In this document: positions 7,480-64,000 of the stretch, piece by piece
Layout: each line of letters starts with the position of its first letter
Position numbering within the stretch: the stretch's first letter is position 1
Notes under the pieces: generated by a model
What the model was told of the DNA's origin: nothing
What the model saw: the letters and a program-made list of their open reading frames with translations, nothing else
Databases searched by the model: none
Translations under genes and position numbers: made by a program
Source: an uncultured Roseovarius sp.
GTDB lineage: Bacteria; Pseudomonadota; Alphaproteobacteria; Rhodobacterales; Rhodobacteraceae
Length of the DNA stretch: 64,000 nt
Assembly (NCBI GenBank): GCA_947497295.1
Contig: CANMFU010000001.1
Location: forward strand, 248,001 to 312,000
Direction: 5' to 3'

Positions 7480-9105
7480 TTGATCGAACGGCTGATGTAC
7501 CGGCTGGCCTGGCTCGTTGCCGCGCTATGTGTGGCGCCGATTCTTGCGGCAGCCCTCGCGGCGCTGGGCGGCGATCTGGAAACGTGGCGCAACGTTTTGT
7601 CGACGGTGCTGCCGCGCTATACCGCGACGACCCTTGCGTTGGTCGCCATCGTGGGCAGCGGCGCTGCAGTGATCGGCACGTCGACGGCATGGCTGGTCAC
7701 TGTCTACCGATTTCCCGGCGTGCGCTTTTTGGAGGTGGCTTTGGCGCTGCCGCTGGCGTTTCCGGCCTATGTTTTGGCCTATGCCTACACGTCGCTGCTG
7801 GATCATCCCGGCCCGGTGCAGACGCTGCTGCGCGATGTCACCGGGTGGGGTCCGCGCGATTACTGGTTTCCCGAAATCCGCAGCCTTGGCGGCGCGGCCC
7901 TGATGCTGACGATGGTGCTGTATCCCTATGTTTACCTGCTGGCCCGTGCGTCATTTCGCCAGCAAAGCTCGAACGCTTTTTTGGTGGCGCGCACGCTGGG
8001 GCGCCCGCCGCTGGCCGCGTTCTATGCGGTGGCGCTGCCGATGGCGCGCCCGGCCATCATGGGCGGCACGCTGCTGGCGATCATGGAGACGATCGCGGAT
8101 TATGGCACCGTCGCCTTTTTCAACGTGCAGACTTTTGCGACCGGCATCTATCAGGCGTGGTTTTCGCTGGGTGAGCGGGCGACAGCGGCGCAGTTATCTC
8201 TTTGCCTGCTGACCTTTGCGCTGCTTTTGGCGGGACTGGAGCGTGCGCAGCGCGGCAAGGCCCGCCGTGCCGGACGGGGTGGCGCGCGGTTCGAAGTTCT
8301 GACCAAGCCGCAACTGACCGGCTGGAAGGGATGGGCCGCGATGGCAATCTGTCTGTTGCCGGTGCTGCTGGGCTTCCTGATCCCGGTGGTCATGCTGGGC
8401 GTCATGGCATGGGGGTCGGGGCAGAGCATCATTCAGCCGCGCTATGTGTCATTGATGGGCAATTCGGTGACGCTGGCTGCTGTGGCATCGGTGCTGACCG
8501 TGACCGGCGCGATCCTGATCGGGTTTCGCGCACGAACCAAACCGGGGCGCGCCTCGCGCGCTTTGGTGGTGGGCGCGGGGCTGGGTTATGCGGTACCGGG
8601 GGGCGTCATCGCCGTGGGCCTGATGGTGCCGATGGCAGGGCTGGATAACGTGATTGACCGGTTCATGGAGGGCAATTTCGGCATAGATACCGGGCTGCTG
8701 ATCACCGGGTCGATCTGGCTGATGGTGCTGGCCTATATGGCGCGGTTCATGGCCGCCGCGCTCAATGCCTATGACAGCGGCATGGCAACGGTGCCGCATC
8801 ATTTTGATGCAATTGCGCGCAGTCTGGGCCAAGGCTCGGCCAGGCTGCTCTGGCGGGTGCATCTGCCGGTGGCGCGCACCTCGGTGCTGACCGCGCTGCT
8901 GATCGTCTTCGTGGACGTGATGAAGGAATTGCCGGCAACGCTGATCCTGCACCCGTTCAACTTTGATACGCTGGCGGTGCAGGCCTACCGTCTGGCGGCG
9001 GATGAGCGGCTGCGCGAGGCGGCGGTGCCGTCGCTGGCGCTGGTGGGCTTCGGGCTAATTCCGGTGCTGCTGCTGTGCCGCACCATTGGACGCGAGAGCG
9101 CCTGA
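7480..9105 (+). CDS. Fe(III)-type ABC transporter permease (FbpB-like, two-domain)
   Basis: 541-residue membrane protein made of two permease domains in tandem, about twelve hydrophobic helices in total. Each half has an EAA-type loop: LVARTLGRPPLAAFYAVALP near residues 170-190 and DAIARSLGQGSARLLWRVHLP near 440-460. This duplicated layout is typical of the FbpB/AfuB ferric iron permeases; thiamine or phosphonate permeases are a lesser possibility. No ATPase or binding-protein gene adjoins it, so partners must be encoded elsewhere. The start may be TTG at 7480 (GGGGA six bases upstream) or ATG at 7495. Confidence 0.85.
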   Translation: MIERLMYRLAWLVAALCVAPILAAALAALGGDLETWRNVLSTVLPRYTATTLALVAIVGSGAAVIGTSTAWLVTVYRFPGVRFLEVALALPLAFPAYVLAYAYTSLLDHPGPVQTLLRDVTGWGPRDYWFPEIRSLGGAALMLTMVLYPYVYLLARASFRQQSSNAFLVARTLGRPPLAAFYAVALPMARPAIMGGTLLAIMETIADYGTVAFFNVQTFATGIYQAWFSLGERATAAQLSLCLLTFALLLAGLERAQRGKARRAGRGGARFEVLTKPQLTGWKGWAAMAICLLPVLLGFLIPVVMLGVMAWGSGQSIIQPRYVSLMGNSVTLAAVASVLTVTGAILIGFRARTKPGRASRALVVGAGLGYAVPGGVIAVGLMVPMAGLDNVIDRFMEGNFGIDTGLLITGSIWLMVLAYMARFMAAALNAYDSGMATVPHHFDAIARSLGQGSARLLWRVHLPVARTSVLTALLIVFVDVMKELPATLILHPFNFDTLAVQAYRLAADERLREAAVPSLALVGFGLIPVLLLCRTIGRESA

Positions 9106-9144
9106 CGCGCAGCGATAGATCGCCTGCGGAAGCGCTAGAAGGAA

Positions 9145-9166
9145 CCGCCCCGGCGGACCGGGGCGG
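9145..9166. terminator. Hairpin between convergent genes
   Basis: Perfect 9-base-pair GC-rich stem (9145-9153 with 9158-9166, loop of 4) sits between the converging permease and cytochrome c peroxidase genes. It lacks a T run on either strand, so it may be a weak bidirectional terminator or an RNA 3'-end hairpin. Confidence 0.5.
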
Positions 9167-9177
9167 CAGAGCGGCTG

Positions 9178-10233
9178 TTATTCGGCCAGGCCTTCGGGGA
9201 TGACCTCGCCCGTCGGGCGGGGTGTCGTAGCGGTTTCGGGCGGAAGCACGGGATAGACGACCTCTGGCATCTCGCCGGTCAGAGAGCCGAGGAAAGTGAC
9301 GATCTTGTCTGTTTCTTCGTCGTTCATCTCTGCGCCCAGCTGCGAGATCGACATGACCTGCACCGCTTCCTTCAGGCCCCAGACCACGCCGGAGTGAAAG
9401 TAGGGCGCCGTCAGCGCGATGTTGCGCAGGGGGGAGGCGCGGAACACGTATTCGTCGTCGGCGGTCTCCGTCACAGCAAAGCGCCCGACATCGCCCTCGG
9501 GCAGGATATCTGCGCCTGGTTTTTCGATCAGGCCGAAGGGGTAATAATCGTGCCCGCCCACGTTCACGCCATTGTGGCAAGCCACGCAGCCGTTATCCAT
9601 GAACAGTTGCAGCCCCTCTTTTTCGTCTGCGCTCAGCGCATCCTCGTTGCCGTTCAGGAAGGCGTCGAAAGGCGCGGGCGTGGTCAGCGTGACCTCGTAA
9701 GCCTCGATCGCCTTGGCGAAATTGTCAAATGTGACGGGATCCTCTTCCTCGGGGAAGGCGCCCTTGAACCATTCGATATACTGCGGCATGGAATTGAGCG
9801 TGGCAACGACGTTCTCGGGCGTGTTCGCCATTTCGACACCCGCCTGCACCGGGCCTTTGGCCTGCGCCTTGAGGTCTTCGGCGCGCCCGTCCCAGAACTG
9901 CGCGACGTTGAAGACCGAGTTCAGCACGGTGGGCGAGTTGCGCGGTCCGGTTTGCCAGCCATGGCCGATGGAAACGGGCATGTTGTCATCGCCCCCCGTT
10001 GCCAGATTGTGGCAGGAGTTGCACGAAAACACGCCCGAGGCCGACATCCGCGGATCAAAGAACAGCGCCTTGCCGAGGTCGATTTTCTCAGGCGTGATCG
10101 TGTTGTCCGTGGGCGCCATCAGCGTCGAAGGAAGCGGGGCGAAATAGTCCAGCGCCGTATCGCGCAGTTCGCTGGCGGCAAGGGGCGCGGCGAACAGGCT
10201 GATGGCGGTTGTGGTTAATAGAATGCGATGCAT
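9178..10233 (-). CDS. Di-haem cytochrome c peroxidase (CcpA/MauG family)
   Basis: Periplasmic peroxidase that would reduce hydrogen peroxide with electrons from a c-type cytochrome. The 351-residue precursor has a signal peptide (residues 1-20, cleavage after LAA). Two haem-c attachment motifs are visible, CNSCH at 71-75 and CVACH at 216-220, with the LGKALFFDPRMS segment before the first that is typical of bacterial CCPs. The start at 10233 is chosen because the signal peptide begins there; 18 further in-frame codons upstream have no signal-peptide character. An FNR-like box lies 64 bases upstream, fitting low-oxygen induction. Confidence 0.93.
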   Translation of the reverse strand: MHRILLTTTAISLFAAPLAASELRDTALDYFAPLPSTLMAPTDNTITPEKIDLGKALFFDPRMSASGVFSCNSCHNLATGGDDNMPVSIGHGWQTGPRNSPTVLNSVFNVAQFWDGRAEDLKAQAKGPVQAGVEMANTPENVVATLNSMPQYIEWFKGAFPEEEDPVTFDNFAKAIEAYEVTLTTPAPFDAFLNGNEDALSADEKEGLQLFMDNGCVACHNGVNVGGHDYYPFGLIEKPGADILPEGDVGRFAVTETADDEYVFRASPLRNIALTAPYFHSGVVWGLKEAVQVMSISQLGAEMNDEETDKIVTFLGSLTGEMPEVVYPVLPPETATTPRPTGEVIPEGLAE

Positions 10234-51503: not shown

Positions 51504-51881
51504 CTACGGGATCGCCGTTGCTCGGCTTTGGTCTTGCCGACCTGCGTGACGCCCTCGCCGCGGTTCCTCCGTCTCTCCCAACCCTTCCAGCGCCACCGGT
51601 GCCTTACCCGGGAATTCGACCATCAGCTTGAGTTCACCGCCCATCGCCCGGACGTAGCTCGTCAGTGTCGAGAGCAGAAGGTCGCTCTGGCGTTCGTATT
51701 TCGCGACGGTGGCTTGCTGCACGCCGAGGGTTTCAGCCAGCTGAACCTGGGTCAGCTTCTTGGCCTTCCGCAACTCCTGCAGCGTCAGGTACTCGGCATG
51801 CAGCCGATCCGCTTCGGCCTTGATCGCCGCGCGGCGGGCGGGGTCGAGGGTCTCCAGCTTCTCCTTAAGGCTCCGGGCCAT
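51504..51881 (-). CDS. XRE-family antitoxin (HigA-like)
   Basis: 125 residues with a helix-turn-helix at about 38-80 (LRKAKKLTQVQLAETLGVQQ, then ATVAKYERQSDLLLSTL). The N-terminus is a long alpha-helical arm. It lies six bases after the toxin gene, the toxin-first order of HigBA. It would bind the toxin and repress its own promoter. Confidence 0.85.
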   Translation of the reverse strand: MARSLKEKLETLDPARRAAIKAEADRLHAEYLTLQELRKAKKLTQVQLAETLGVQQATVAKYERQSDLLLSTLTSYVRAMGGELKLMVEFPGKAPVALEGLGETEEPRRGRHAGRQDQSRATAIP

Positions 51882-51886
51882 CGTCG

Positions 51887-52240
51887 TTATCCTTTCCGTC
51901 TCTCCAGGTGGCGGTCGAAGCGGTCGTCCGCCCTAGCAATCAGCGACTTGTAGAACCGCTTCTCGCTGCCACCCGACTTGTCCCCGCCGACGAGCAGGAT
52001 CGCCTGCCGGTCGGGGTCGAATGCGAAGGCGATGCGCCAGACGCCATCGGCGGCGGTGCAGCGCAGTTCCTTCATGTTGGCATGCTTCGACCCGATCAGG
52101 GTGTCCGCATGGGGTCGCCCGAGCATGGGGCCTTCCCGCTCGAGCAGCAACGCCCGGGCGAGGATCGCGTCCTGCACCTCTTGTGGCAGGGCATCGAATT
52201 CCGGCTCGAATTCCTCGGCAAAGGATACGGTCCACGGCAT
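51887..52240 (-). CDS. RelE/HigB-type toxin (Gp49-like)
   Basis: 117 residues. ANMKELRCTAADGVWRIAFAF and ILLVGGDKSGGSEKRFYKSLI match the phage-derived Gp49/HigB fold, which cleaves mRNA on the ribosome. Paired with the following XRE antitoxin gene. Such pairs stabilise genomic islands and may act as abortive-infection modules. Confidence 0.85.
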   Translation of the reverse strand: MPWTVSFAEEFEPEFDALPQEVQDAILARALLLEREGPMLGRPHADTLIGSKHANMKELRCTAADGVWRIAFAFDPDRQAILLVGGDKSGGSEKRFYKSLIARADDRFDRHLERRKG

Positions 52241-52340: not shown

Positions 52341-52577
52341 TCAGTCTGCCTCTTTGAGCAGTCCCTGTGCCTTTTCCGCTGCGAGAGCGAGGCCGCGAAT
52401 CCGTGTGCCGGGGGCATCCGTTGCTCGCTGAAACTCGGCAAACGCCTCGGGCGAGAGCGTCGAGGACTCGCCTTCGTCCAGCTTCGGTTTCTCGGTCTTG
52501 GTCATGCCTGCCTCCATAGTGTTCTTCTTGGTCGTTTCAGTCTTTGCGTGGGGGTTTGGTGTATCACGTTTCGCCAC
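52341..52577 (-). CDS. Small charged protein of unknown function
   Basis: 78 residues, rich in Lys and Glu with Ala-rich helix at the end; no family seen. The GTG start at 52577 overlaps the integrase 3' end by 14 bases and has a GGAGG about nine bases upstream, which supports translation. Alternative starts are inside (52505). Weakly supported. Confidence 0.45.
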   Translation of the reverse strand: MAKRDTPNPHAKTETTKKNTMEAGMTKTEKPKLDEGESSTLSPEAFAEFQRATDAPGTRIRGLALAAEKAQGLLKEAD

Positions 52578-53676
52578 CCCACGCTTCCTCCCTTTCCGGC
52601 CCGCCCACGTCCCGCGACAACAGCTTCATCCCCGAAGCCGCTAGTACCTTCTGGCGCGCGGCGCGGGTGTAACGCGAGGCTTCCTTCATGGTCGTCCAGC
52701 CGAAGATCGCCATCAGCTGCCGCTCGGTTGCGCCGTTCTCGGCCGCCAGCGCCGCGCCCGCCTTGCGCAGCCCGTGGGCGGAGCAATGCTTCAGCCCGGC
52801 GTCGTCGCATTGCTTGCGGAACCAGTTGCCGAAGCCGTTCGAGGTGAAGGGCTTGCCGAAGGCCGTGACGAGGAAAGCCAAGTTGCCGGTGGCTGTCGCG
52901 TCCAGCACCGCCTTCAACTCTGGCAGGACCGGGATGGAGAGGGTGACGGGCTTGCGGTCGCGGTTCTTGGCCTGGGTCAGGGTGATCCAGCCGTCCTTGA
53001 TGTGCTGGGGGCCGAGCCTGACGATGTCCGACCGCCGCTGCCCGGTGTAGAGCATGAGCGCGAGCGCCAGCCGCGGCTTGCTGCCGATCGGGTGATGGTC
53101 CTCGAACTGCCGAACTTCCTCCATCGTCCAGGAGTGGAAGCCGTCCCCCTTTGCCTTGAGGTAGGGCACGTCGCGGGCAGGGTTGCGCTGCGCCAGCTCG
53201 TACTCGACAGCGAAGGCGTAGACCTGGCGCAGCGCCTTGACGAAGCCGTTGGCGGCCTCGGGGCGGTCGGCCATCTCGTCACGGATGCGGCGGACATGGC
53301 GGGGCTCCATCAGCGCATAGGGTTTCGACCCATTCTTCTCGCAAATCCGGTCGAGGATGCCGCGTCGGACGTACTTGGTGCGGCCGCTGAGGCGCTGGTA
53401 CTCGGCGGAAACGTAATACTGCTCGCAGAGCCACTTGAAGCTGCCCTTGGGGCCGCGCCGCTCGAGCGGTCCGGCCGGCGCGCGCGGTGTCGCGCCCATC
53501 ATCGCGGCGCGGTATTCGGCGAGGAAGTCCTCCGTACCCGGCTGGCTCCGCAGCCGCACCTTCAGGTGCCCGGGCCGCCGCAGGTAGACGCGCACGTTCC
53601 CGTGCCGGTCGGTATCCTCGATGACGTGTTTCAGGCGGATGCTGCCCGAACCGTCTCTCATCCTGAATGTGGGCAT
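52564..53676 (-). CDS. Tyrosine-type site-specific integrase
   Basis: 370 residues. C-terminal catalytic residues are present: Arg in YTGQRRSDIV, His-x-x-Arg in SAHGLRKAGA, and the nucleophile Tyr in EASRYTRAA. The central region holds an SAM-like DNA-binding domain. Adjacent to tRNA-Phe, it is the integrase of the island whose left edge is that tRNA. Confidence 0.95.
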   Translation of the reverse strand: MPTFRMRDGSGSIRLKHVIEDTDRHGNVRVYLRRPGHLKVRLRSQPGTEDFLAEYRAAMMGATPRAPAGPLERRGPKGSFKWLCEQYYVSAEYQRLSGRTKYVRRGILDRICEKNGSKPYALMEPRHVRRIRDEMADRPEAANGFVKALRQVYAFAVEYELAQRNPARDVPYLKAKGDGFHSWTMEEVRQFEDHHPIGSKPRLALALMLYTGQRRSDIVRLGPQHIKDGWITLTQAKNRDRKPVTLSIPVLPELKAVLDATATGNLAFLVTAFGKPFTSNGFGNWFRKQCDDAGLKHCSAHGLRKAGAALAAENGATERQLMAIFGWTTMKEASRYTRAARQKVLAASGMKLLSRDVGGPEREEAWGGET

Positions 53677-54438: not shown

Positions 54439-54868
54439 GCGGCATTCGTGGCAGACGCTTTTATCTTGCCCTTTTCCATCGCTCACCCCTAGCCGTTTCG
54501 GTGGATCTCACCAGCGGTGCGATGCGGCACGCTACAATCCGCGAAAGCCCGCCACAATTTCCGCGATCCGACGGTGCGAGACAGAGCACGTCGGAAGTAG
54601 GTTTTCGGCTGCATTCCTAGCCTGCGATGAGCGCAATTCTGAATCTTTAATTAGCTATGGAGCGACTGGAATTGGTTCGAGGGTGAGCGCTGGACAATGG
54701 CCTTCCCTGCAAAAGGTGTGCTGCGTGTCTGCCGAGATGCTGCAGCCTGTCGGCATCTGCGCTGCAAGCCGGGTACAAATCTTCGGGCCAGGTCGATCTC
54801 TCTCGCAACCGCCTTGAAGCGTTCAACAAGGCCTTGCAAATGCTGGAAATCATGCGTTGATTCAACCT

Positions 54869-56371
54869 ATGGGGACAGTAACGCGTAACAAACTTGAAAC
54901 GAGGGAGGTCGATGCGACGCCATACGCCGCGTCGCTCATCGAGGGTCATCGCGACTTTGGCTACAGCCTCGAGACGGCTCTCGCAGACATCATCGACAAC
55001 GCCATTACCGCCGGCGCGCGAACAGCAACCCTGATGGCCGACACTGTTGCGGACGAACCTTGGATCGCGCTGGCCGATGATGGTTCAGGTATGACGGAGA
55101 CCGAACTGGTCGAAGCCATGCGTCTCGGCTCGAAGAATCCGACCGATGACCGCGAGGCCGAAGACCTCGGTCGTTTCGGTCTCGGCTTGAAGAGTGCCAG
55201 CTTCTCGCAGTGTCGAAGTCTGACGGTTCTGACGCGGAAAGACGATCGCACATCTTGTGCCCGCTGGGACCTGGATCGCGTCGCCAAACGGAACGACTGG
55301 AGCCTCGAACTCATCGACAACCCCGAACTCGTGACTGGCCATGACCTCCTATCGGAGACCGGAACGGTCGTCATTTGGGAGAAACTCGATCGCTTGAGCG
55401 GCGGTTATATGCATGATCGTGCGAAGCGGGCCGAACACATGAACTCGGAGTTGTCCCGCGCAGAACATCATCTGCGGCTGGTGTTCCATCGCTTTCTGGA
55501 GGGCGCCAAGCCACGTCTGAAACTGTCACTCAACGGTCGACCGGTGAAACCCATCGATCCCATGGCAACGACACACGCCGCAACGCAGAGGGACCCGGAA
55601 GAAGTGCTTCGCCTGCGTCAGGGTGACGTTCTGATAAGGTGCCACACGCTGCCCCATCACAAGCGGATGAGTCGGGAAGAGTGGGAAGAAATCGGCGGTC
55701 CGGAGGGGCATCTGAAGTCTCAGGGCCTCTACGTTTACCGGGAGAAACGTCTCATCATCGCGGGCGGATGGCTGGGCCTCGCACGCCAGACCGAACTCAC
55801 AAAGCTCTGCCGGATCGCAGTCGATATCCCGAACACGATGGACGCGGAGTGGAAGATCGACGTGAAGAAGGCCTCGGCCCAGCTTCCGCCGGTGGTGCGT
55901 GAGCGCCTGAAAAAGGTTGTCGAGCGGTTTGTTGGCACGTCCAAGCGCACGTATAGAAGCCGGGGCCAGAAACTGGTCGATGAAACCCGTTTCCCGATCT
56001 GGAATAGGGTGCAGAACGATGGTCAGATCGTCTTTCGCCCCAACCTCGAGCACCCGGTTTTCCGAACCTATGCCGAGCAGCTGCCAGAAGAGCTGCGAGA
56101 GGGTTTCGAACGTTGCCTGCGCATCGTGGGGTCTGGTCTACCGATCGAGACGTTGCATGCTGAACTCGTCGGGAACGCGGAAGCTGTCACTGCTGACGAG
56201 ACCTCGGCTGCTGATCTGGGAGAGCTCATATACTCCCTTGCAGTCAATCTAATGGAAAATGGCATGTCCACTGACGCCCTAATTGATACAATGAAAAATT
56301 ATGCATTCTTGCGTTCGCAGTGGGATAGCGTTGAGTCAATTCTACAGAAATTTCTTGCCGAGGCAGAGTAA
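54869..56371 (+). CDS. GHKL ATPase, MutL/MORC type (defence system component)
   Basis: 500 residues. The N-terminal third is a GHKL ATP-binding domain with the N box ETALADIIDNAITAGA (35-50), DDGSGM (70-75) and GRFGLGLKSAS (101-111). This is the MutL/MORC version of the fold used to clamp DNA. The rest is alpha/beta, ending in helical segments. It is the first of four packed genes and its stop overlaps the Z1 gene by one base. Start ATG 54869 (no clear Shine-Dalgarno) is preferred to TTG 54857. Likely role: ATP-gated loading or licensing of nuclease partners. Confidence 0.9.
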   Translation: MGTVTRNKLETREVDATPYAASLIEGHRDFGYSLETALADIIDNAITAGARTATLMADTVADEPWIALADDGSGMTETELVEAMRLGSKNPTDDREAEDLGRFGLGLKSASFSQCRSLTVLTRKDDRTSCARWDLDRVAKRNDWSLELIDNPELVTGHDLLSETGTVVIWEKLDRLSGGYMHDRAKRAEHMNSELSRAEHHLRLVFHRFLEGAKPRLKLSLNGRPVKPIDPMATTHAATQRDPEEVLRLRQGDVLIRCHTLPHHKRMSREEWEEIGGPEGHLKSQGLYVYREKRLIIAGGWLGLARQTELTKLCRIAVDIPNTMDAEWKIDVKKASAQLPPVVRERLKKVVERFVGTSKRTYRSRGQKLVDETRFPIWNRVQNDGQIVFRPNLEHPVFRTYAEQLPEELREGFERCLRIVGSGLPIETLHAELVGNAEAVTADETSAADLGELIYSLAVNLMENGMSTDALIDTMKNYAFLRSQWDSVESILQKFLAEAE

Positions 56372-59118
56372 TGAGAAATGCATTTGAGAAGCTTAAAAAC
56401 ACCGTCGAAATGGATCTTTTTGACAGTCCGAGAATGACTGGGGAGGAATTGCGCGCCTATATTTCCGACCTAAACATGTTGCACGCGCGTAGAAATCCTC
56501 CAGGGGTGACTGATGACGAAATCGAGCTGATAGCCAAAGAAATTGAGGCTAAGGAAGGAATCAAAGCGGGCCTAGGTGCAGTCGTCGACAGCGAGGACTT
56601 CGAGCCATGGCTTGATGATGCCAAACCATCTATCGAGCCGTTCTACTGGAATCGCTATCAGAAACTGCTTCTGCAGAACGGCCTTCCCAAGGACGTCGTG
56701 ATTTCAACAGATAAGGTCACAGACAAGATCCTCAGTCGCTTGGGAAACCCTGACAAACAGGTGCCATGGGATCGACGTGGCATGGTGGTTGGCCACGTCC
56801 AAAGCGGAAAGACCGCCAATTATACGGGCCTGATCTGCAAGGCGGCTGATGCGGGGTACAGGCTGATCATCGTCATTGCCGGTATTCACAACAACTTGCG
56901 CAACCAGACACAGGCCAGGATCGACGAGGGGTTCATCGGTCGCGATACCGGGAAGTCCCAGGAAACCAAGAAGGGCGGGGCAAAACACATCATTGGTGTC
57001 GGCCATTTCGACCCGAATAACACCCCTGTCAGCCTCACGAACACGCTAAGGGACTTCAACAAGGCCACAGCTTCCACGAACACGAGCGAGATCGACTCCT
57101 ACAAGGTACCTGTCGTCCTCGTAATCAAGAAGAACCATCGCACGCTCGCGAACCTGCTTGACTGGCTCAAGGACAATAGCGCGCGTGGCGATCAGGAGAT
57201 GATCGACCAGCCGATGCTCCTGATTGATGACGAAGCCGACAACGCATCGATCAATACCAAGTACGGCAAGAAGCTTGTCACGACGATCAATGGGCAGATT
57301 CGCGACCTGCTGAACATGTTCCACCGGAGCTGTTACGTCGGATACACGGCGACCCCGTTTGCCAACATCTTCATCGACCCCGATCAGGACGACGAGATGT
57401 ATAATGAAGACCTCTTTCCGAGGGATTTCATCATCGGCCTTGACGCGCCCACCAACTACTTCGGCCCGACCAAGATCTTCGTGGATGGACTGCCGGAGGA
57501 AGGCGATCCAACCTGGCTTCGCTACATCACCGACAACGAGGACATTCTGCCGATAAAGCACAAGCTCGATCATGAGCTAGATGCGCTTCCGTCGTCGTTG
57601 ACGCGGGCATTGCGCACCTTTCTGCTCGCAAGGACCATCAGGAATATGCGCGGGCAGAAGGCGGCGCATTGCTCGATGCTTGTAAACGCGAGCCGTTTCA
57701 CCGCCGTTCAGGGCCGCCTGCGAAATCGCCTTCACGAAACGCTCGAGCGGATTCAGAATTCAGTTCGCATCAATGCGAGCCGGGGCGCGGCCGCATTGAA
57801 TGATCCGGAGATTGCCGCGCTCCATGGCGTCTGGCAGGAAGAATACTTCGAAACGGAATTCGATTGGCCCTCCATCCAGTCCGAACTCCTTGATGCAATC
57901 GCCTCCGCCAAGATCGTGGAGGTAAACAGCCGGGCCAATGATCTGGACTATTCGAACTCCGGAGAAAGGGGCCAGACCGTTGTTGCCGTCGGTGGGTTCT
58001 CGTTGTCACGCGGGCTGACGCTAGAAGGGCTGACCGTCACCTGGTTCCTGCGCAACACCATGATGTACGACACGCTAATGCAGATGGGGCGGTGGTTCGG
58101 CTACCGGAGTGGCTACGAGGACCTTTGCCGCATATGGATGCCTGCCGAAGCAATTGATTGGTACTCGTTCATAGCGACCGCCGCCGAGGAATTGCATGAT
58201 GAGTTGCGCACCATGGAGAAGGCTAAGGCAACGCCTCGAATGTTTGGCCTTGCTGTGCGAAGCCACCCCGCTTCACTGCTGGTGACCGCGCGGAACAAGA
58301 TGGGGTCGGGGAAGAGGGTTACAACGCTTGTTGGCCTATCGAACAAGTTCGTTGAGACATCTCGAGTTAGTATTCGATCCGACGACCTGAGGGCCAACAC
58401 CGATATTGCAAAACGATTGATTCAAGAGCTGAGCGCTGGAGGTTTTGAAGAACGCACCGTATCAGCAGGCATTTGTGTGATGAGGGTTCCGGTCGAAATT
58501 GTGGATAGGTTCTTGGCTGGCTGGAGAAATGCGGAGCAGAGCGTCACTTCTGACCCTGGTCCGATACGTCAATACATTCGTGCGCGAAAAGATGATGAGC
58601 TACCGCTTTGGGACGTTCTGATTGCCAGCAAGAAATCCGGTGATGACGTTCATACTCTTGCTCGACCAATTAAACCCATCACGCGGTCAGTAGATCCAGT
58701 GAAACTAAAGGAGGGATTCATTCCGTTTGGTGGGAAACGAATGCGAGTGGCCGATGCAAGCTTCGAGAAAGCAGGATTGGATGAGTACTTGATTTCGGAT
58801 GTCGAAGAGCAATACCGGTCACGCCCTGACATCAGTGGAGATAGGCCGAGCTATCCCGGTTCGATCTACAGGTCTGTTCGTGAACGTCCTCTGTTGATGC
58901 TAATGCTGGTCAAGCCTCTTCCGATGGAAGGAACAGAAGAAAAGAGGGAAGTCGAACTCATTCCAGCCGATCCAGTTGTAACGTGGGGAATAAGCCTTCC
59001 CGTATCTTCACGCCCGGCCGAGAGGGTCGAGTACGTGGTGAACACGGTACGATACCAAGAACTCTTCGGTGAAGAAGACGAAGACGATGATCAGGAGGCA
59101 GCACTTGAAGCCTCATGA
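56371..59118 (+). CDS. Z1 domain ATPase/endonuclease-associated protein
   Basis: 915 residues. Walker A-like GHVQSGKT (141-148), a DEAD-type Walker B LLIDDEADNAS (283-293), the helicase-like VGYTATPFANIF (323-334), and a motif V/VI-like LSRGLTLEGL with QMGRWFGYRSGY (about 545-577) define the Z1 (PF10593) superfamily II ATPase. These proteins occur with MutL/MORC ATPases in restriction-type systems. The last third is less GC-rich than the rest. The gene overlaps the next by 14 bases. Confidence 0.92.
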   Translation: MRNAFEKLKNTVEMDLFDSPRMTGEELRAYISDLNMLHARRNPPGVTDDEIELIAKEIEAKEGIKAGLGAVVDSEDFEPWLDDAKPSIEPFYWNRYQKLLLQNGLPKDVVISTDKVTDKILSRLGNPDKQVPWDRRGMVVGHVQSGKTANYTGLICKAADAGYRLIIVIAGIHNNLRNQTQARIDEGFIGRDTGKSQETKKGGAKHIIGVGHFDPNNTPVSLTNTLRDFNKATASTNTSEIDSYKVPVVLVIKKNHRTLANLLDWLKDNSARGDQEMIDQPMLLIDDEADNASINTKYGKKLVTTINGQIRDLLNMFHRSCYVGYTATPFANIFIDPDQDDEMYNEDLFPRDFIIGLDAPTNYFGPTKIFVDGLPEEGDPTWLRYITDNEDILPIKHKLDHELDALPSSLTRALRTFLLARTIRNMRGQKAAHCSMLVNASRFTAVQGRLRNRLHETLERIQNSVRINASRGAAALNDPEIAALHGVWQEEYFETEFDWPSIQSELLDAIASAKIVEVNSRANDLDYSNSGERGQTVVAVGGFSLSRGLTLEGLTVTWFLRNTMMYDTLMQMGRWFGYRSGYEDLCRIWMPAEAIDWYSFIATAAEELHDELRTMEKAKATPRMFGLAVRSHPASLLVTARNKMGSGKRVTTLVGLSNKFVETSRVSIRSDDLRANTDIAKRLIQELSAGGFEERTVSAGICVMRVPVEIVDRFLAGWRNAEQSVTSDPGPIRQYIRARKDDELPLWDVLIASKKSGDDVHTLARPIKPITRSVDPVKLKEGFIPFGGKRMRVADASFEKAGLDEYLISDVEEQYRSRPDISGDRPSYPGSIYRSVRERPLLMLMLVKPLPMEGTEEKREVELIPADPVVTWGISLPVSSRPAERVEYVVNTVRYQELFGEEDEDDDQEAALEAS

Positions 59119-60067
59119 TCCTTGGGAAAGACTGGACCCTGACGAAGCCAAGCGGGTCGATGTTGCGGGCCGCTTCGATTTCTTCTGGGTTGTGCTGGAC
59201 GCCGGCTTGCCCGGCCTGATGCTGAAGCTGCCCGGCCTTCCGCAACCACTACCACGTCTGCCGAAATTGAGGAACCTTGTCGCCTCCTTCCGACCGGTTT
59301 CGGGAGGATCGGCATTCGTTCTGGGCCTCAAGGAAAGAAGTCAGGTCGAGATCTTCGAGACCCTATGCCGGGATGTGGTCGAGGCCGGGGAAGCAGGTGC
59401 GGATCGAGAGGAAGCACTCTCCAGAGCACTCCAGCGCACGCGACGCTGGTATCACCTCCTGCGTGGCGGGAAGACAAATGGGTTGTCTGTTGAAGAGCAG
59501 CGTGGGCTTGTCGGCGAGTTGGCCTTCCTTCGGGAGCTTGTGTCGGCCTTCGGCCCTGACACCGCAATCGAGGCGTGGACCGGACCGACCGGTTCCGCCA
59601 AGGATTTCGAGCTCATCAGAAGCTGCGTCGAAGTGAAGGCAAGGCGGGTAGCTGCAAAGCCATTCGCGGCTATTTCTTCGGAAGACCAACTTGCTGATGT
59701 CGAAGGGAGCCGCCTGTGCCTGCGTGTGGTCAACGTGGCGTCGGCCGTCCTGCCGGAAGGTCAGAGCCTACATGATCACGTGAGAATGACCGCCGAGATG
59801 TTCGAAGAAGACGGCGCGGCCTTCGAAGCGTGGGAGGAGACGCTCTATTCGACAGGATATGATCCTGAGAACGACTACGACGACAGGCGATGGCTTCTTG
59901 GCGCTGCGACCGATTACGAGGTGACAGAGGGTTTCCCAAGGATTTCCGCGCCTCTTGCACCAGGCGTGGAGAATGTCCGGTATGCGATCGCTCTCGATGC
60001 CTGCGAGCCGTTCAAACTGGAAGGTGATCTGATCGACGTGATCCGGAAGGGACTTGAGCATGAGTGA
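59105..60067 (+). CDS. PD-(D/E)XK motif protein (PF14390/DUF4420 type)
   Basis: 320 residues with a TTG start. A perfect AGGAGG lies six bases before TTG 59105, while the ATGs further up (59069, 59087) have no site. Catalytic core residues are Asp167 (SAKDFELI) and Glu176-x-Lys178 (CVEVKARR), with the helix GLVGELAFLRELV before it, typical of this restriction-endonuclease-fold family. It is the probable nuclease of the four-gene system. The stop overlaps the AIPR start by eight bases. Confidence 0.88.
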   Translation: MKPHDPWERLDPDEAKRVDVAGRFDFFWVVLDAGLPGLMLKLPGLPQPLPRLPKLRNLVASFRPVSGGSAFVLGLKERSQVEIFETLCRDVVEAGEAGADREEALSRALQRTRRWYHLLRGGKTNGLSVEEQRGLVGELAFLRELVSAFGPDTAIEAWTGPTGSAKDFELIRSCVEVKARRVAAKPFAAISSEDQLADVEGSRLCLRVVNVASAVLPEGQSLHDHVRMTAEMFEEDGAAFEAWEETLYSTGYDPENDYDDRRWLLGAATDYEVTEGFPRISAPLAPGVENVRYAIALDACEPFKLEGDLIDVIRKGLEHE

Positions 60068-62132
60068 TCTCGAAGAATTTCATCATGAACTCATCGCCGA
60101 TATCCAGGGCGATGCCGACGTTCTCGGACTTGTGACGGTTGAGGCGTTTTTCGAGAAGGTGGGCGATCTACTTACCGAAGCCGGGGAGTTGGACGGAGCC
60201 AACAGGGCGTATTTCGAGGGGGGCGGCGCAAGCAACCCCATGCGGATCGACGGTTACGGCGGCGACCCAAGAGATGGCGATGGCGTCCTGAGCCTCGTGT
60301 TGTGCGACTTCGAGCTTTCCGAAGAGGTGCGCGTTCAGAACAAGGATCAGATTCAGCGCCTGCTCCAGCGGCTATACAGGTTCGTTGTTTCAAGCCTGAA
60401 GGCCGATTTCCGAGAGCAGCTAGAGGAGACGAGTGCCGGGTTCGGCGTGGCCGACCTCATTGCAACGACGTGGAAGGACGTCGAGAAGGTCAAGCTCATC
60501 ATCGTGACCAACGCAGACTTTCGCGCCCGTGCCGATGCGGCGAACGTGAAGGATCTTGATGGCAGACCGGTCACCCTTAGCGTCTGGGACCTGAAGCGCC
60601 TCAAGCAGTACATGGAGCAGGGGCAGGCGCGGGCGAACCTGATCATCGATTTCGACAGGGATTTCGGTGGGGGCGTTCCCCTTCTTGCGGCTTCAGGAAG
60701 CGACAGCGCGCTCGAAAGCTACCTTGCAGTCATTCCCGGAAAGCAGCTGGCGGCCATCTATGACAAGTGGGGACCGCGCCTGCTCGAGGCCAACGTGAGA
60801 AGCTTTCTTCAGGCGCGCGGCAAGGTGAACCAAGGCATTCGCAACACGATCCGCGATGAGCCGCACATGTTCTTTTCCTACAACAACGGCCTGAGTGCGA
60901 CGGCCGACGCGATCGAGGTGGAACAGACCGATATCGGGCTCCAACTGGTGCGGGCTGACAATCTGCAGATCGTCAATGGCGGTCAAACGACGGCTTCACT
61001 GCACGCCGCACGAAAGGCCTTCACCGAGCAGTTGGATCGTGTTCACGTCCAAATGAAGCTGACCATCGTTCCGCGCGAACAATCCGAACTCGTGGTCCCG
61101 CGCATCTCGGAATACGCGAACAGCCAGAACAAGGTTAACGCAGCGGACTTCTTCGCCAACCATCCCTTCCACATCAGGACGGAAGAGTTGTCGCGCAAGG
61201 TTCTTGCGCGGGGAGAGGACGGGTATCGGGACACCAAATGGTTCTATGAACGCGCGAGGGGACAATATGCCGACGAACGAGGGCGAAGGACCATTGCGGA
61301 GCGCAAGAGGTTCGATGCCGAGTTTCCGCGTTCCCAGTTCCTCACGAAGACCGACTTGGCCAAGTTCGAGAACACCTGGGCCTGCATGCCGCATATCGTG
61401 AGCCTCGGCGCGCAGAAAAACTTTGCGGAATTCGCCAAGCACATCGGCAAGCGGTGGGGCAACGAGGGCGCGGCGTTCGATGAGCTCTGGTTCAGGCGCA
61501 TGATCGCAAAGGCCATCATCTTCCGGGCCACCGAAAAACTGGTCTCGGGCGCGGAATGGTATGAAGGCGGCTACCGCGCCAACATCGTGACCTATGCGAT
61601 TGCCAAGCTCGTGCATGATGCAGAGAAACGGGAGATGGTTGTCGATCTGGACGCCGTCTGGAGATACCAGGATGTCTCGCCCGATCTGAAGGCGGCACTG
61701 TTGGTTGCTGCGGCAGAAGCTCAGGACGTGATCACGCACCCGCCCGAAGGCGTGCGCAACTTCAGCGAATGGGCCAAGAAGCAGGCTTGTTGGAAGGGGC
61801 TGGAGGATCGTGAGTTGAGCTATCCGGATGAATTCGATCGCATCCTGATTTCGCCGGACCTGGCCAATGAACGCGCGAGAGAGGCCCGCGCGGACAAGGC
61901 TGTCGAGACCAGCGTCGAAGCTGAGCTCGAAGTGCACAGGCTTGGCGCGGCGTTCTGGGCAGAAGCACGGAACTGGGCTCGGGAACGTGGGCTTCTGTCC
62001 CCGCGAGAAAATGGTGTTCTGGAAACCTGCGCCGCGATCCCGATCAAGATGCCGTCGGACAAGCAATGCGCCATCGCGATGAGCGCACTCGGAAAGCTCG
62101 AAGAGGAAGGCTTCAGAGAAAGCACAGGTTAA
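60060..62132 (+). CDS. AIPR family (abortive infection phage resistance) protein
   Basis: 690 residues. The AIPR (PF10592) domain spans about residues 220-520, with NNGLSATAD (about 276), QIVNGGQTTASLHAA (about 303) and EYANSQNKVNAADFF (about 352). Proteins of this family accompany Z1/MORC restriction-type systems and were first linked to abortive infection. Start ATG 60060 overlaps the nuclease gene. Last gene of the packed operon; it converges with a four-base overlap on the dCTP-deaminase-like gene. Confidence 0.92.
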   Translation: MSDLEEFHHELIADIQGDADVLGLVTVEAFFEKVGDLLTEAGELDGANRAYFEGGGASNPMRIDGYGGDPRDGDGVLSLVLCDFELSEEVRVQNKDQIQRLLQRLYRFVVSSLKADFREQLEETSAGFGVADLIATTWKDVEKVKLIIVTNADFRARADAANVKDLDGRPVTLSVWDLKRLKQYMEQGQARANLIIDFDRDFGGGVPLLAASGSDSALESYLAVIPGKQLAAIYDKWGPRLLEANVRSFLQARGKVNQGIRNTIRDEPHMFFSYNNGLSATADAIEVEQTDIGLQLVRADNLQIVNGGQTTASLHAARKAFTEQLDRVHVQMKLTIVPREQSELVVPRISEYANSQNKVNAADFFANHPFHIRTEELSRKVLARGEDGYRDTKWFYERARGQYADERGRRTIAERKRFDAEFPRSQFLTKTDLAKFENTWACMPHIVSLGAQKNFAEFAKHIGKRWGNEGAAFDELWFRRMIAKAIIFRATEKLVSGAEWYEGGYRANIVTYAIAKLVHDAEKREMVVDLDAVWRYQDVSPDLKAALLVAAAEAQDVITHPPEGVRNFSEWAKKQACWKGLEDRELSYPDEFDRILISPDLANERAREARADKAVETSVEAELEVHRLGAAFWAEARNWARERGLLSPRENGVLETCAAIPIKMPSDKQCAIAMSALGKLEEEGFRESTG

Positions 62133-62893
62133 GAGCCGCTCTCATCCAGCTCACGATGGTATTCTCTGATCATTTCCCTGATCTGTTCATCTGTATGGAA
62201 GTATTTTCCAACCTCGAAGGCTGTGCCGACGCCCCAAACGAGCAACAGGGCGATTAAAATCTTGCCCCAGTGTTTCTTAAAGAACCGAGACGCCAAACTG
62301 TCTAGAATGTCTGGCTCCAGCCTTTCCACCAAACCACTTTTCAGGCTCTCCTCTATCCTCTCTTCCATTTCGGCTGTTTGTAAGAAGGTGCTGGAAAAGT
62401 CGCCAACCATGTCCACCAAGATCTTTCTGGCATAGGATTCATGGTCAAATTCTAGCTTTTGAGGGATTTGGCCTCCTTCAGATTCTGCATGTTTGAAGAA
62501 CAGAACGCGAAAAAACTCTTCACCGGCATCTAGGCGAATCGGCTTCCTGGAAAAGTTGATTACCAAGCTTCCGATTGGACCAAAGAAATTTGCATCAACC
62601 AAGCCTACATCCAAGGCAAGCATGCCTCGCTTTGTGAAGCCACTTCTAAGTGTGACCAACGCCGTTACTGATGGTTCCCTGATCTGGAACTTTTCTTGCG
62701 AAATCACCCATGCCAGTCCTCCTGGTTCGAGGGTGTGAATGGTCTTGGGCTTCTGAGGGTCGTAGGTCTTGGTGTCCTCACCCGCCGGAATAATGGAATG
62801 GATCCTGAGGTAGTAGCATCCGCCACGGATGTTCTTCGGTTCGACGTTGGCTAGAAGTTCAAGTTCAGTTATCTGGTCGCCAGTGATAAGCAC
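62129..62893 (-). CDS. dCTP deaminase/dUTPase-fold protein with C-terminal membrane helix
   Basis: 254 residues from a GTG start (AGGAG eight bases upstream). Residues about 20-135 fit the Dcd trimer fold: RSGFTKRGMLALDVGLVD then NFFGPIGSLVINFSRKPI, where the ring arginine and Asp100 are kept but the glutamate of the usual TLE motif is missing (the aligned residues are SLV). Residues 145-210 are helical, and 211-229 (ILIALLLVWGVGTAFEVG) form a membrane helix with a charged tail. It may sense nucleotides or sit at the membrane as an effector. Lower GC than neighbours. Confidence 0.72.
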   Translation of the reverse strand: MLITGDQITELELLANVEPKNIRGGCYYLRIHSIIPAGEDTKTYDPQKPKTIHTLEPGGLAWVISQEKFQIREPSVTALVTLRSGFTKRGMLALDVGLVDANFFGPIGSLVINFSRKPIRLDAGEEFFRVLFFKHAESEGGQIPQKLEFDHESYARKILVDMVGDFSSTFLQTAEMEERIEESLKSGLVERLEPDILDSLASRFFKKHWGKILIALLLVWGVGTAFEVGKYFHTDEQIREMIREYHRELDESGS

Positions 62894-62903
62894 GTGTCAA
62901 ACT

Positions 62904-62913
62904 CCTCATGAGG
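62904..62913. promoter_or_regulatory. Palindrome CCTCATGAGG between divergent starts
   Basis: A perfect 10-base palindrome in the 29-base gap between the two deaminase-type genes. It supplies GAGG, the ribosome binding sequence, on both strands. It could also be an operator. Confidence 0.55.
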
Positions 62914-62922
62914 CACCGATAG

Positions 62923-63456
62923 ATGGATGTTATTCAGTGTGATAGATGGGATGCCCGCTTCTTTGCAATGGCAGACCTTGTAGCCTCATGGAGCGAAGAT
63001 CGAAGCCGACGGGTCGGTTGCGTTGTCGTAGGTGATGCCAATGAGGTAAGATCAACCGGCTACAACGGCCTGCCGAGGGGCGTGAGCGCGGAGCAAGCGA
63101 CACGTCATTCGCGCGAGAATGGTGAAAAGTACCTCTGGTTCGAACACGCTGAGCGTAACGCACTCTACAACATGCTCCGAGCTGGCGTGTCCACTTCGAA
63201 TTGCAGGATGTACTGCAACAGCTTTCCGTGTGCCGACTGCGCGAGGGCCATCGTCCAGTCAGGTATCGGCGAGCTTCGTACCTATGCGCCAGATTTGAAC
63301 GACACAAAGTTCGGAAGGCATTTCAATGTTGCAATTGAAATGTTTTCTGAAGGAGGAGTCATCGTAAAACTTTACTCCCGTGAGGACGAAATGATTGCTA
63401 AAGCTTTCTCCACCCTCGAGGCGACTCGCAATCCGACTGGCGGCTTCTTCAGATAA
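62923..63456 (+). CDS. dCMP deaminase (deoxycytidylate deaminase family)
   Basis: 177 residues. Zinc ligands and the catalytic acid are in place: His75 and Glu77 in FEHAERNALYN, Cys103 and Cys106 in FPCADCARAI. The N-terminal SEDRSRRVGCVVVGD and GYNGLPRGV are typical of dCMP deaminases. It converts dCMP to dUMP, changing the pyrimidine pool. Its promoter must be within the divergent dCTP-deaminase-like gene because only 29 bases separate the starts. Its presence between a restriction-type system and a cytosine methyltransferase is unusual. Confidence 0.88.
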   Translation: MDVIQCDRWDARFFAMADLVASWSEDRSRRVGCVVVGDANEVRSTGYNGLPRGVSAEQATRHSRENGEKYLWFEHAERNALYNMLRAGVSTSNCRMYCNSFPCADCARAIVQSGIGELRTYAPDLNDTKFGRHFNVAIEMFSEGGVIVKLYSREDEMIAKAFSTLEATRNPTGGFFR

Positions 63457-63469
63457 GCGTTCCCGCTTC

Positions 63470-63492
63470 TTCTAGGCGCCCCTACCCTAGAA
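63470..63492. terminator. Hairpin between converging deaminase and methyltransferase genes
   Basis: TTCTAGG (63470-63476) pairs with CCTAGAA (63486-63492) around a nine-base loop. No T run; a possible bidirectional terminator. Confidence 0.4.
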
Positions 63493-63540
63493 TTGCGTGC
63501 AGACCTTTTGAAGCAACAGTCGCGGTCATCACCTTTCAGA

Positions 63541-64000
63541 TCAGTCAAAAATTGGCAGTAACGCCTCCGCAATCTGCCTCGCAAGAAATGGAGGCACTGC
63601 ATTGCCAACCTGCACGAATTGCTCGGTGCGATTTCCCATGAAGTGATAATTGTCGGGGAAGGTCTGCAACCGTGCGGCCTCGCGCACCGTCAGGCTACGG
63701 CACTGCGTCGGGTCCGGGTGAATGAAGTAGTGCCCGTCCTTCGAAATGTGGCTCGTTACCGTCGAAGCCGGGGCGTTGCCAACTTGGACTCGAAACCGGT
63801 CGTTGAACTTGCCCGTTTTCCAGTTCTTGTGGTTCGGCGCCAGGATGTCTGGAAACTGGTGCGCACGCGGGCTCAGGCCCTCGGCCTTCGCGAAACACGC
63901 GGCGTAGAGGTAGCGGGCAAGATCGGATGGCATATGGCCGCGGGTTTCATGACCCGAGACGCCGATGAGCTTCGGGTCGTCCAGAAACGCAGCGAGTCCC
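63541..64000 (-). CDS. Cytosine-C5 DNA methyltransferase, C-terminal part (5' end outside window)
   Basis: The frame is open from the window edge, giving about 152 C-terminal residues. Visible Dcm family signatures are [20 protein letters not shown], the [20 protein letters not shown] target-recognition-to-motif IX segment, [20 protein letters not shown] (motif IX/X) and [18 protein letters not shown] (motif X). The N-terminal motifs I, IV and VI lie beyond the window. It would methylate cytosine in the host DNA and may mark it as self for the MORC-Z1 system. Confidence 0.92.

Follow-up and report, generated by a model that had tools for sequence, protein, structure and literature searches.

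What does a Dcd/dUTPase-fold protein with a membrane segment do opposite a dCMP deaminase, at the edge of a restriction-type operon? The question is raised by the window, a 64,000-nucleotide stretch of DNA from an uncultured Roseovarius sp. (contig CANMFU010000001.1, positions 248,001 to 312,000). Near its end, the gene for a protein that joins a Dcd/dUTPase fold to a single predicted membrane helix at the C terminus, here called Dcd-TM, faces away from a gene for a dCMP-deaminase-family protein (Table 1). The two genes form a recurrent pair that is carried by restriction-type islands as interchangeable cargo and that also occurs away from such islands.

Conservation of the pair

Close relatives of Dcd-TM are present at ten loci, referred to here as clade A: the window, G099 (Primorskyibacter record L002), G774 (Roseovarius record L003), G1150, the IMG/VR contig L029, G270 (L019), Sinorhizobium meliloti KH46 pSymA (L017), G594 (L038), G1044 (L053), and G1096 (L054). 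At nine of the ten the gene lies head to head with a dCMP deaminase gene, and on this count the possibility that the two are chance neighbors was rejected. The pairs are found in the family of the window, in Sinorhizobium, in other genomes of the class, and on one IMG/VR contig. In the six loci where the distance from start to start can be read directly, with the starts set by alignment, it is 30 bases at most and, at the least, an overlap of one base. The deaminase gene of G099, like that of G1150, shares its contig with the first codons of the adjoining Dcd-like gene. For G774 we infer the head-to-head arrangement, because its two genes sit at the facing ends of two separate contigs. All nine paired deaminases contain the HAE and PCxxC motifs; in six of them a loop reads GYNGLP or GFNGLP, and in the other three (L017, L038, and G1150) SANxLP.

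In the Dcd tree, eight paired rows group with L054 (support 92/94), next to a sister group of 12 proteins (support 96/97), although long branches make this tree unsure. The trees exclude G1150, which was found later, and on both of them the paired label requires two changes. The mirror-tree correlation (r) between the two proteins is 0.87 over eight pairs, a value reached in 5 of 5000 permutations, but only 0.45 over the six distinct pairs (31 of 720 permutations), and L053 does not fit.

Clade A is rare, with matches in 3 of 394 genomes of the family, 2 of 385 of the class, and 3 of 398 of the phylum, the window genome being counted each time. The family scan matched 13 genomes, 10 of them weakly (E 8.6e-6 to 7.8e-4), and two of these weak loci (L020 and L021) were examined; the class scan matched seven genomes, five weakly, and four loci (L039–L042) were examined. 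Neither the window Dcd-TM protein nor that of L053 matched any of the phage records, and the viral-contig scans returned a single contig. No description of the pair was found in a literature search whose coverage was without most subscription journals.

Fold, active site residues, and membrane segment of Dcd-TM

The reading frame of Dcd-TM is intact, and Pfam assigns it to DCD/dUTPase; both models are matched by all eight Dcd-like proteins of one alignment. Dcd-TM has the dUTPase fold (PF00692 superfamily) and scores above the Pfam cut-off, and in fold it comes nearest to dUTPases and bifunctional Dcd-type enzymes, in agreement with the first-pass annotation of the locus. It falls below the models for the individual enzymes, with 32 bits for the dCTP deaminase equivalog TIGR02274 (curated cut-off 92.8) and 24.5 and 24.3 bits for the dUTP diphosphatase models NF001862 (103) and TIGR00576 (102.55).

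That annotation also held that the catalytic glutamate is missing, and the alignment indeed places a leucine in the column of Glu-138 of Escherichia coli Dcd. The glutamate is absent from all 24 Dcd-TM-type proteins aligned, and it is absent as well from the dUTPase of the host and from the aligned position of 8y1w. Asp-100, which we take to be the catalytic aspartate of dUTPase motif III, is kept in 23 of the 24. Because of this distribution, the protein fits better the description "not a dCTP deaminase" than the earlier term "degenerate." The view that the missing glutamate marks a dying gene was rejected, given its absence throughout the 24 proteins and the nonsynonymous divergence (dN) of 0.15 between the window and G099 against a synonymous divergence (dS) of 2.2. 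This selection test is one comparison, near saturation and with an interrupted G099 copy, two others having no usable dS. At the motif IV position where 8y1w, 4xjc, and the host dUTPase have a glutamine, alignments show an arginine in clade A.

A C-terminal membrane helix, likewise anticipated earlier, was called by hydropathy alone. The value in this stretch is at least 1.6 in 22 of the 24 proteins, with L039 (1.59) and L061 (1.45) below, and L040 has a second hydrophobic stretch. Elsewhere the host genome contains a two-domain Dcd-type frame (364 residues) and a dUTPase-type frame (151 residues), to which the pair is an addition.

The dCMP deaminase

The deaminase frame is open, and Pfam assigns it to dCMP_cyt_deam_1. 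Its zinc motifs read HAE (HxE) and PCADC (PCxxC), in keeping with the earlier description of an intact dCMP deaminase; its gene is indeed divergent from that of Dcd-TM, with 29 bases between the starts. The nearest solved relatives in the Protein Data Bank (PDB) are mostly dCMP-type deaminases, and the enzyme may act on dCMP. No sigma-70-like promoter was matched in a scan of positions 62000–63600. Two plasmids of Rhizobium sp. CB3090 (L031 and L032) share the same TniB/TniQ transposon genes, together with NUDIX and HAD genes and a dCMP-deaminase-like frame absent from the gene table.

The cargo slot beside an MZA-like operon

The pair was earlier placed between a restriction-type operon and a cytosine methyltransferase, and its borders are MzaE on one side and a C5-methyltransferase gene on the other. 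The operon scores below all the NCBIfam cut-offs for MzaB to MzaE (352.9/850, 534.8/1500, 107.2/420, and 381.3/1050 bits); as judged by these models, it is a relative of MZA and not a member.

MzaC homologues occur in 32 of the 394 family genomes, among which a clade-A match is found only in G000 and G099. Seven islands were compared, six from these 32 genomes and G774, and G1150 was compared in part. In three of the seven (the window, G099, and G774), the pair occupies the slot that runs from MzaE to the C5-methyltransferase and Vsr genes; a DUF2971 gene takes its place in three others (G230, G238, and G094), and in one (G057) the slot is empty. The locus records with the DUF2971 gene after MzaE are L093, L094, and L096, and that with the empty slot is L095. 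Membership of the pair in the MZA operon was rejected, since it is present in 2 of 32 MzaC genomes and the slot is otherwise filled or empty in four of seven islands. The family sample gives a p value of 0.018 for an association between the pair and MzaC when the seed genome is counted, and of 0.15 when it is left out.

In G1150, the end of a methyltransferase gene adjoins MzaE, and the pair lies past MzaB, at the opposite end of the operon. Because of this position, and because its Dcd-like protein is nearest to those of L038 and L017, the G1150 pair is probably a separate acquisition. On the IMG/VR contig L029 (4857–7204), genes for a NaeI-type endonuclease, a C5-methyltransferase, and Vsr adjoin the pair, and at L017 it is near a C5-methyltransferase and Vsr. 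Two small genes at window positions 51504–52240 (minus strand), just before an integrase gene (52564–53676), resemble by eye a toxin of the RelE/HigB type and an antitoxin of the XRE type.

Table 1. Features of the window around the Dcd-TM/deaminase pair
Feature	Positions	Strand	Remarks
MZA-like operon (MzaB, MzaC, MzaD, MzaE matches)	54857..62132	+	PADLOC, NCBIfam
Dcd-TM (Dcd/dUTPase fold, one C-terminal membrane helix)	62129..62893	-	254 residues, GTG start; Pfam, alignment, hydropathy, predicted fold, relatives
Spacer between the two start codons	62894..62922		29 bases
dCMP-deaminase-family protein	62923..63456	+	177 residues; HAE and PCxxC intact; Pfam, PHROG, PDB relatives
C5-cytosine methyltransferase, 3' part	63541..64000	-	Continues beyond the window, then Vsr; far border of the cargo slot

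Mobility and broken copies

The pair is lower in G+C than its flanks in six of six loci, with L053 measured together with a third gene. Between the window and G099, the synonymous divergence is 2.2 and 1.8 for the two genes of the pair and 0.53 and 0.46 for MzaE and MzaD. Exchange in the slot, low G+C, and the higher dS together mark the pair as a swappable cassette. An insertion-element-like sequence breaks the Dcd-like gene close to its 5' end in G099 and G1150, and in G774 such a sequence seems to stop just upstream of that gene, so that three of four MZA-linked Dcd-TM copies are affected; the deaminase frames in all three are intact. These elements were recognized by eye and not by a family search, the numbers are small, and of the two genes the Dcd-like one offers the larger target.

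A sister clade with other partners

The proteins of the sister clade, mostly encoded on plasmids (e.g. L058–L062 and L064), likewise have a Dcd fold with a C-terminal hydrophobic segment and no glutamate. They differ from clade A in having no dCMP deaminase homologue in the pieces searched, and in their neighbors. Deaminase homologues were found in none of 18 pieces without the pair, L054 included. Ten plasmid loci were considered, comprising the best 9 of 54 records for the L055 query and one of five (L066) for the L053 query. By annotation, a uracil-DNA glycosylase gene is near in five of the ten, ImmA/IrrE in five, a MazG-type or other nucleoside triphosphate pyrophosphohydrolase in four, a gene for a nucleotide kinase or for base hypermodification in two, and thymidylate synthase (two genes) in one. 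L063, L065, and L066 have none of these neighbors; L065 is near a ribonucleotide reductase subunit gene and L066 near adenylosuccinate synthetase. In genomic loci, the neighbors include a 5-hydroxymethyldeoxyuridine DNA kinase domain gene (L055), MazG_C (L041), and ThyX (L040, which falls outside both tree groups). The surroundings of the sister clade look like a larger nucleotide-centered system. Genes for helix-turn-helix, ImmA/IrrE, and C1 peptidase proteins also recur beside the sister proteins of plasmids L058–L062, L064, and L067 and of L055.

In clade A itself, the L053 pair has a thymidylate-synthase-like third gene (8505–9419, minus strand) that touches the end of the Dcd-TM gene. Its product reads GLPYD; thymidylate synthases usually have an asparagine at that position, and an aspartate is the mark of dCMP-directed enzymes.

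Proposed function and alternative explanations

We tentatively propose for the pair the role of a portable accessory of two genes, most likely directed against phage, in which the deaminase makes dUMP, Dcd-TM binds a deoxyuridine-type nucleotide, and the membrane helix carries the effect. Nucleotides would rise during infection or DNA breakdown, and the soluble deaminase would convert dCMP to dUMP, or a modified dCMP to its deaminated form, thereby supplying or removing the ligand. Dcd-TM, possibly a trimer by analogy with Dcd and dUTPases, would hold the nucleotide in its pocket and pass the bound state to the C-terminal helix, acting as an effector or as a membrane-localized regulator. A fuller version seems to us rather unlikely, namely that the pair represents a new two-gene defense class, in which a nucleotide-gated single-helix membrane effector with a Dcd/dUTPase fold is controlled by a dCMP deaminase of its own and the unit is carried as interchangeable restriction-island cargo. 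In that version the deaminase would turn infection-released dCMP into a signal or withdraw one, and in the sister clade this sensor would be coupled to uracil-DNA glycosylase, MazG, and thymidylate enzymes.

Several observations weigh against the proposal. PADLOC gives no match for Dcd-TM and a partial match of the deaminase to its dCTPase model. The hydropathy of the window membrane segment, 1.74, is moderate, and residues 165–242 of the predicted structure have a predicted local distance difference test (pLDDT) score below 50. Dcd-TM keeps the aspartate and has no motif IV glutamine, and it may have dUTPase activity. L054, which by eye appears to lie in a phage region, has a clade-A Dcd-TM without a deaminase, and the 20-kb pieces of L019, L038, and L053 hold no homologue of the MZA, methyltransferase, NaeI, or Vsr proteins searched. 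Deaminase relatives occur in catabolic-looking operons without an annotated Dcd-type neighbor (Roseibium L030 and Chelatococcus L036), and the surroundings of the relatives in Vibrio, Photobacterium, and Rhizobium (L033, L034, L037, and L031) yielded no homologue of Dcd-TM. Overall, the observation made in the first-pass annotation is confirmed and its interpretation is supported in part.

If Dcd-TM is an active, membrane-localized dUTPase, it and the deaminase could simply push dCTP and dCMP to dUMP and starve phage DNA synthesis, with no sensing. The nearest folds, the non-glutamate residue of 8y1w, the aspartate in 23 of 24 proteins, and the deaminase motifs in nine of nine are in line with such a drain, and we regard it as a live rival, if an unlikely one. 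A constitutive form would burden a host that has its own Dcd and dUTPase, the motif IV glutamine of dUTPases is replaced by arginine in clade A, and the conserved membrane helix is left unexplained. Sensing is ranked above a plain dCTP drain because the helix is conserved, the motif IV glutamine is replaced, and the host enzymes are already present. Quite improbable, in our estimate, is a toxin-antitoxin-like arrangement, in which Dcd-TM would be toxic at the membrane and restrained by the deaminase or its product. The mobile, AT-rich, and swappable nature of the pair would suit it, as would the insertion-element-like sequences in or just upstream of Dcd-TM next to intact deaminases. Yet, by size alone, it is not significant that all three hits fall in the larger gene or the spacer, and L054 lacks the deaminase. 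More improbable still is housekeeping in islands with modified bases, the deaminase clearing dCMP or 5-methyl-dCMP from methylated DNA and Dcd-TM handling the deoxyuridine side. A C5-methyltransferase and Vsr lie near five of nine pairs, and the third gene of L053 points in the same direction; the 20-kb pieces of three pairs, however, contained no homologue of Vsr or of the methyltransferases searched, and G1150 showed only the methyltransferase end beside MzaE.

Relation to known systems

Dcd-TM has in common with Dcd and Dcd-type dUTPases (PF22769 and PF00692) the fold of residues 1–165, the pyrimidine-site aspartate, and the motif II arginine or lysine. It differs in the missing glutamate and the motif IV arginine, in the added helical linker and membrane helix, and in the separate dCMP deaminase encoded alongside. 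The anti-phage dCTP deaminase (PADLOC dCTPase, NF041025) also concerns deamination of deoxycytidine nucleotides, and the window deaminase matches part of it, with 65 bits against a cut-off of 400. That protein is a long single chain (model lengths 630 and 437), in contrast to a 177-residue deaminase with a Dcd-TM partner.

According to the available text of a preprint, Clover (CloA/CloB) is a tested defense system whose effector reads a pyrimidine nucleotide raised by phage (PMC12265719). It is also a two-gene nucleotide-pool system, although for the window pair such reading is our proposal. The Clover genes encode an HD-motif dNTPase and a nucleotidyltransferase (PMC12265719), and neither domain was hit in the window pair; at E values up to 0.1, the Pfam families matched by its proteins were only those of Dcd/dUTPase and of deaminases. 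DefensePredictor systems, as far as their available main text goes, resemble the pair in their nucleotide-metabolism domains, dUTPase among them. There, dUTPase, MazG, MazG-C, and aGPT-Pplase are predicted and not validated, and the validated domains include thymidylate synthase and 5-hydroxymethyluracil kinase; "dCTP deaminase" and "Dcd" occur zero times in that main text, and no such pair was met in it (PMC13092281). MZA is given as mzaABCDE (Gao 2020, cited in the available text of PMC9523054); the neighboring operon matches MzaB to MzaE, whereas the pair is adjacent cargo and none of the MZA genes. The pair would be a new form of nucleotide-pool defense.

Significance

The pair is a defined, cloneable two-gene unit for what may be nucleotide sensing at the membrane. 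Its family, often annotated publicly as "deoxycytidine triphosphate deaminase" or "hypothetical protein," is now linked to uracil, thymidylate, and modified-base chemistry. In MZA-type islands, the cargo slot with its exchanged contents is a place to seek more defense genes.
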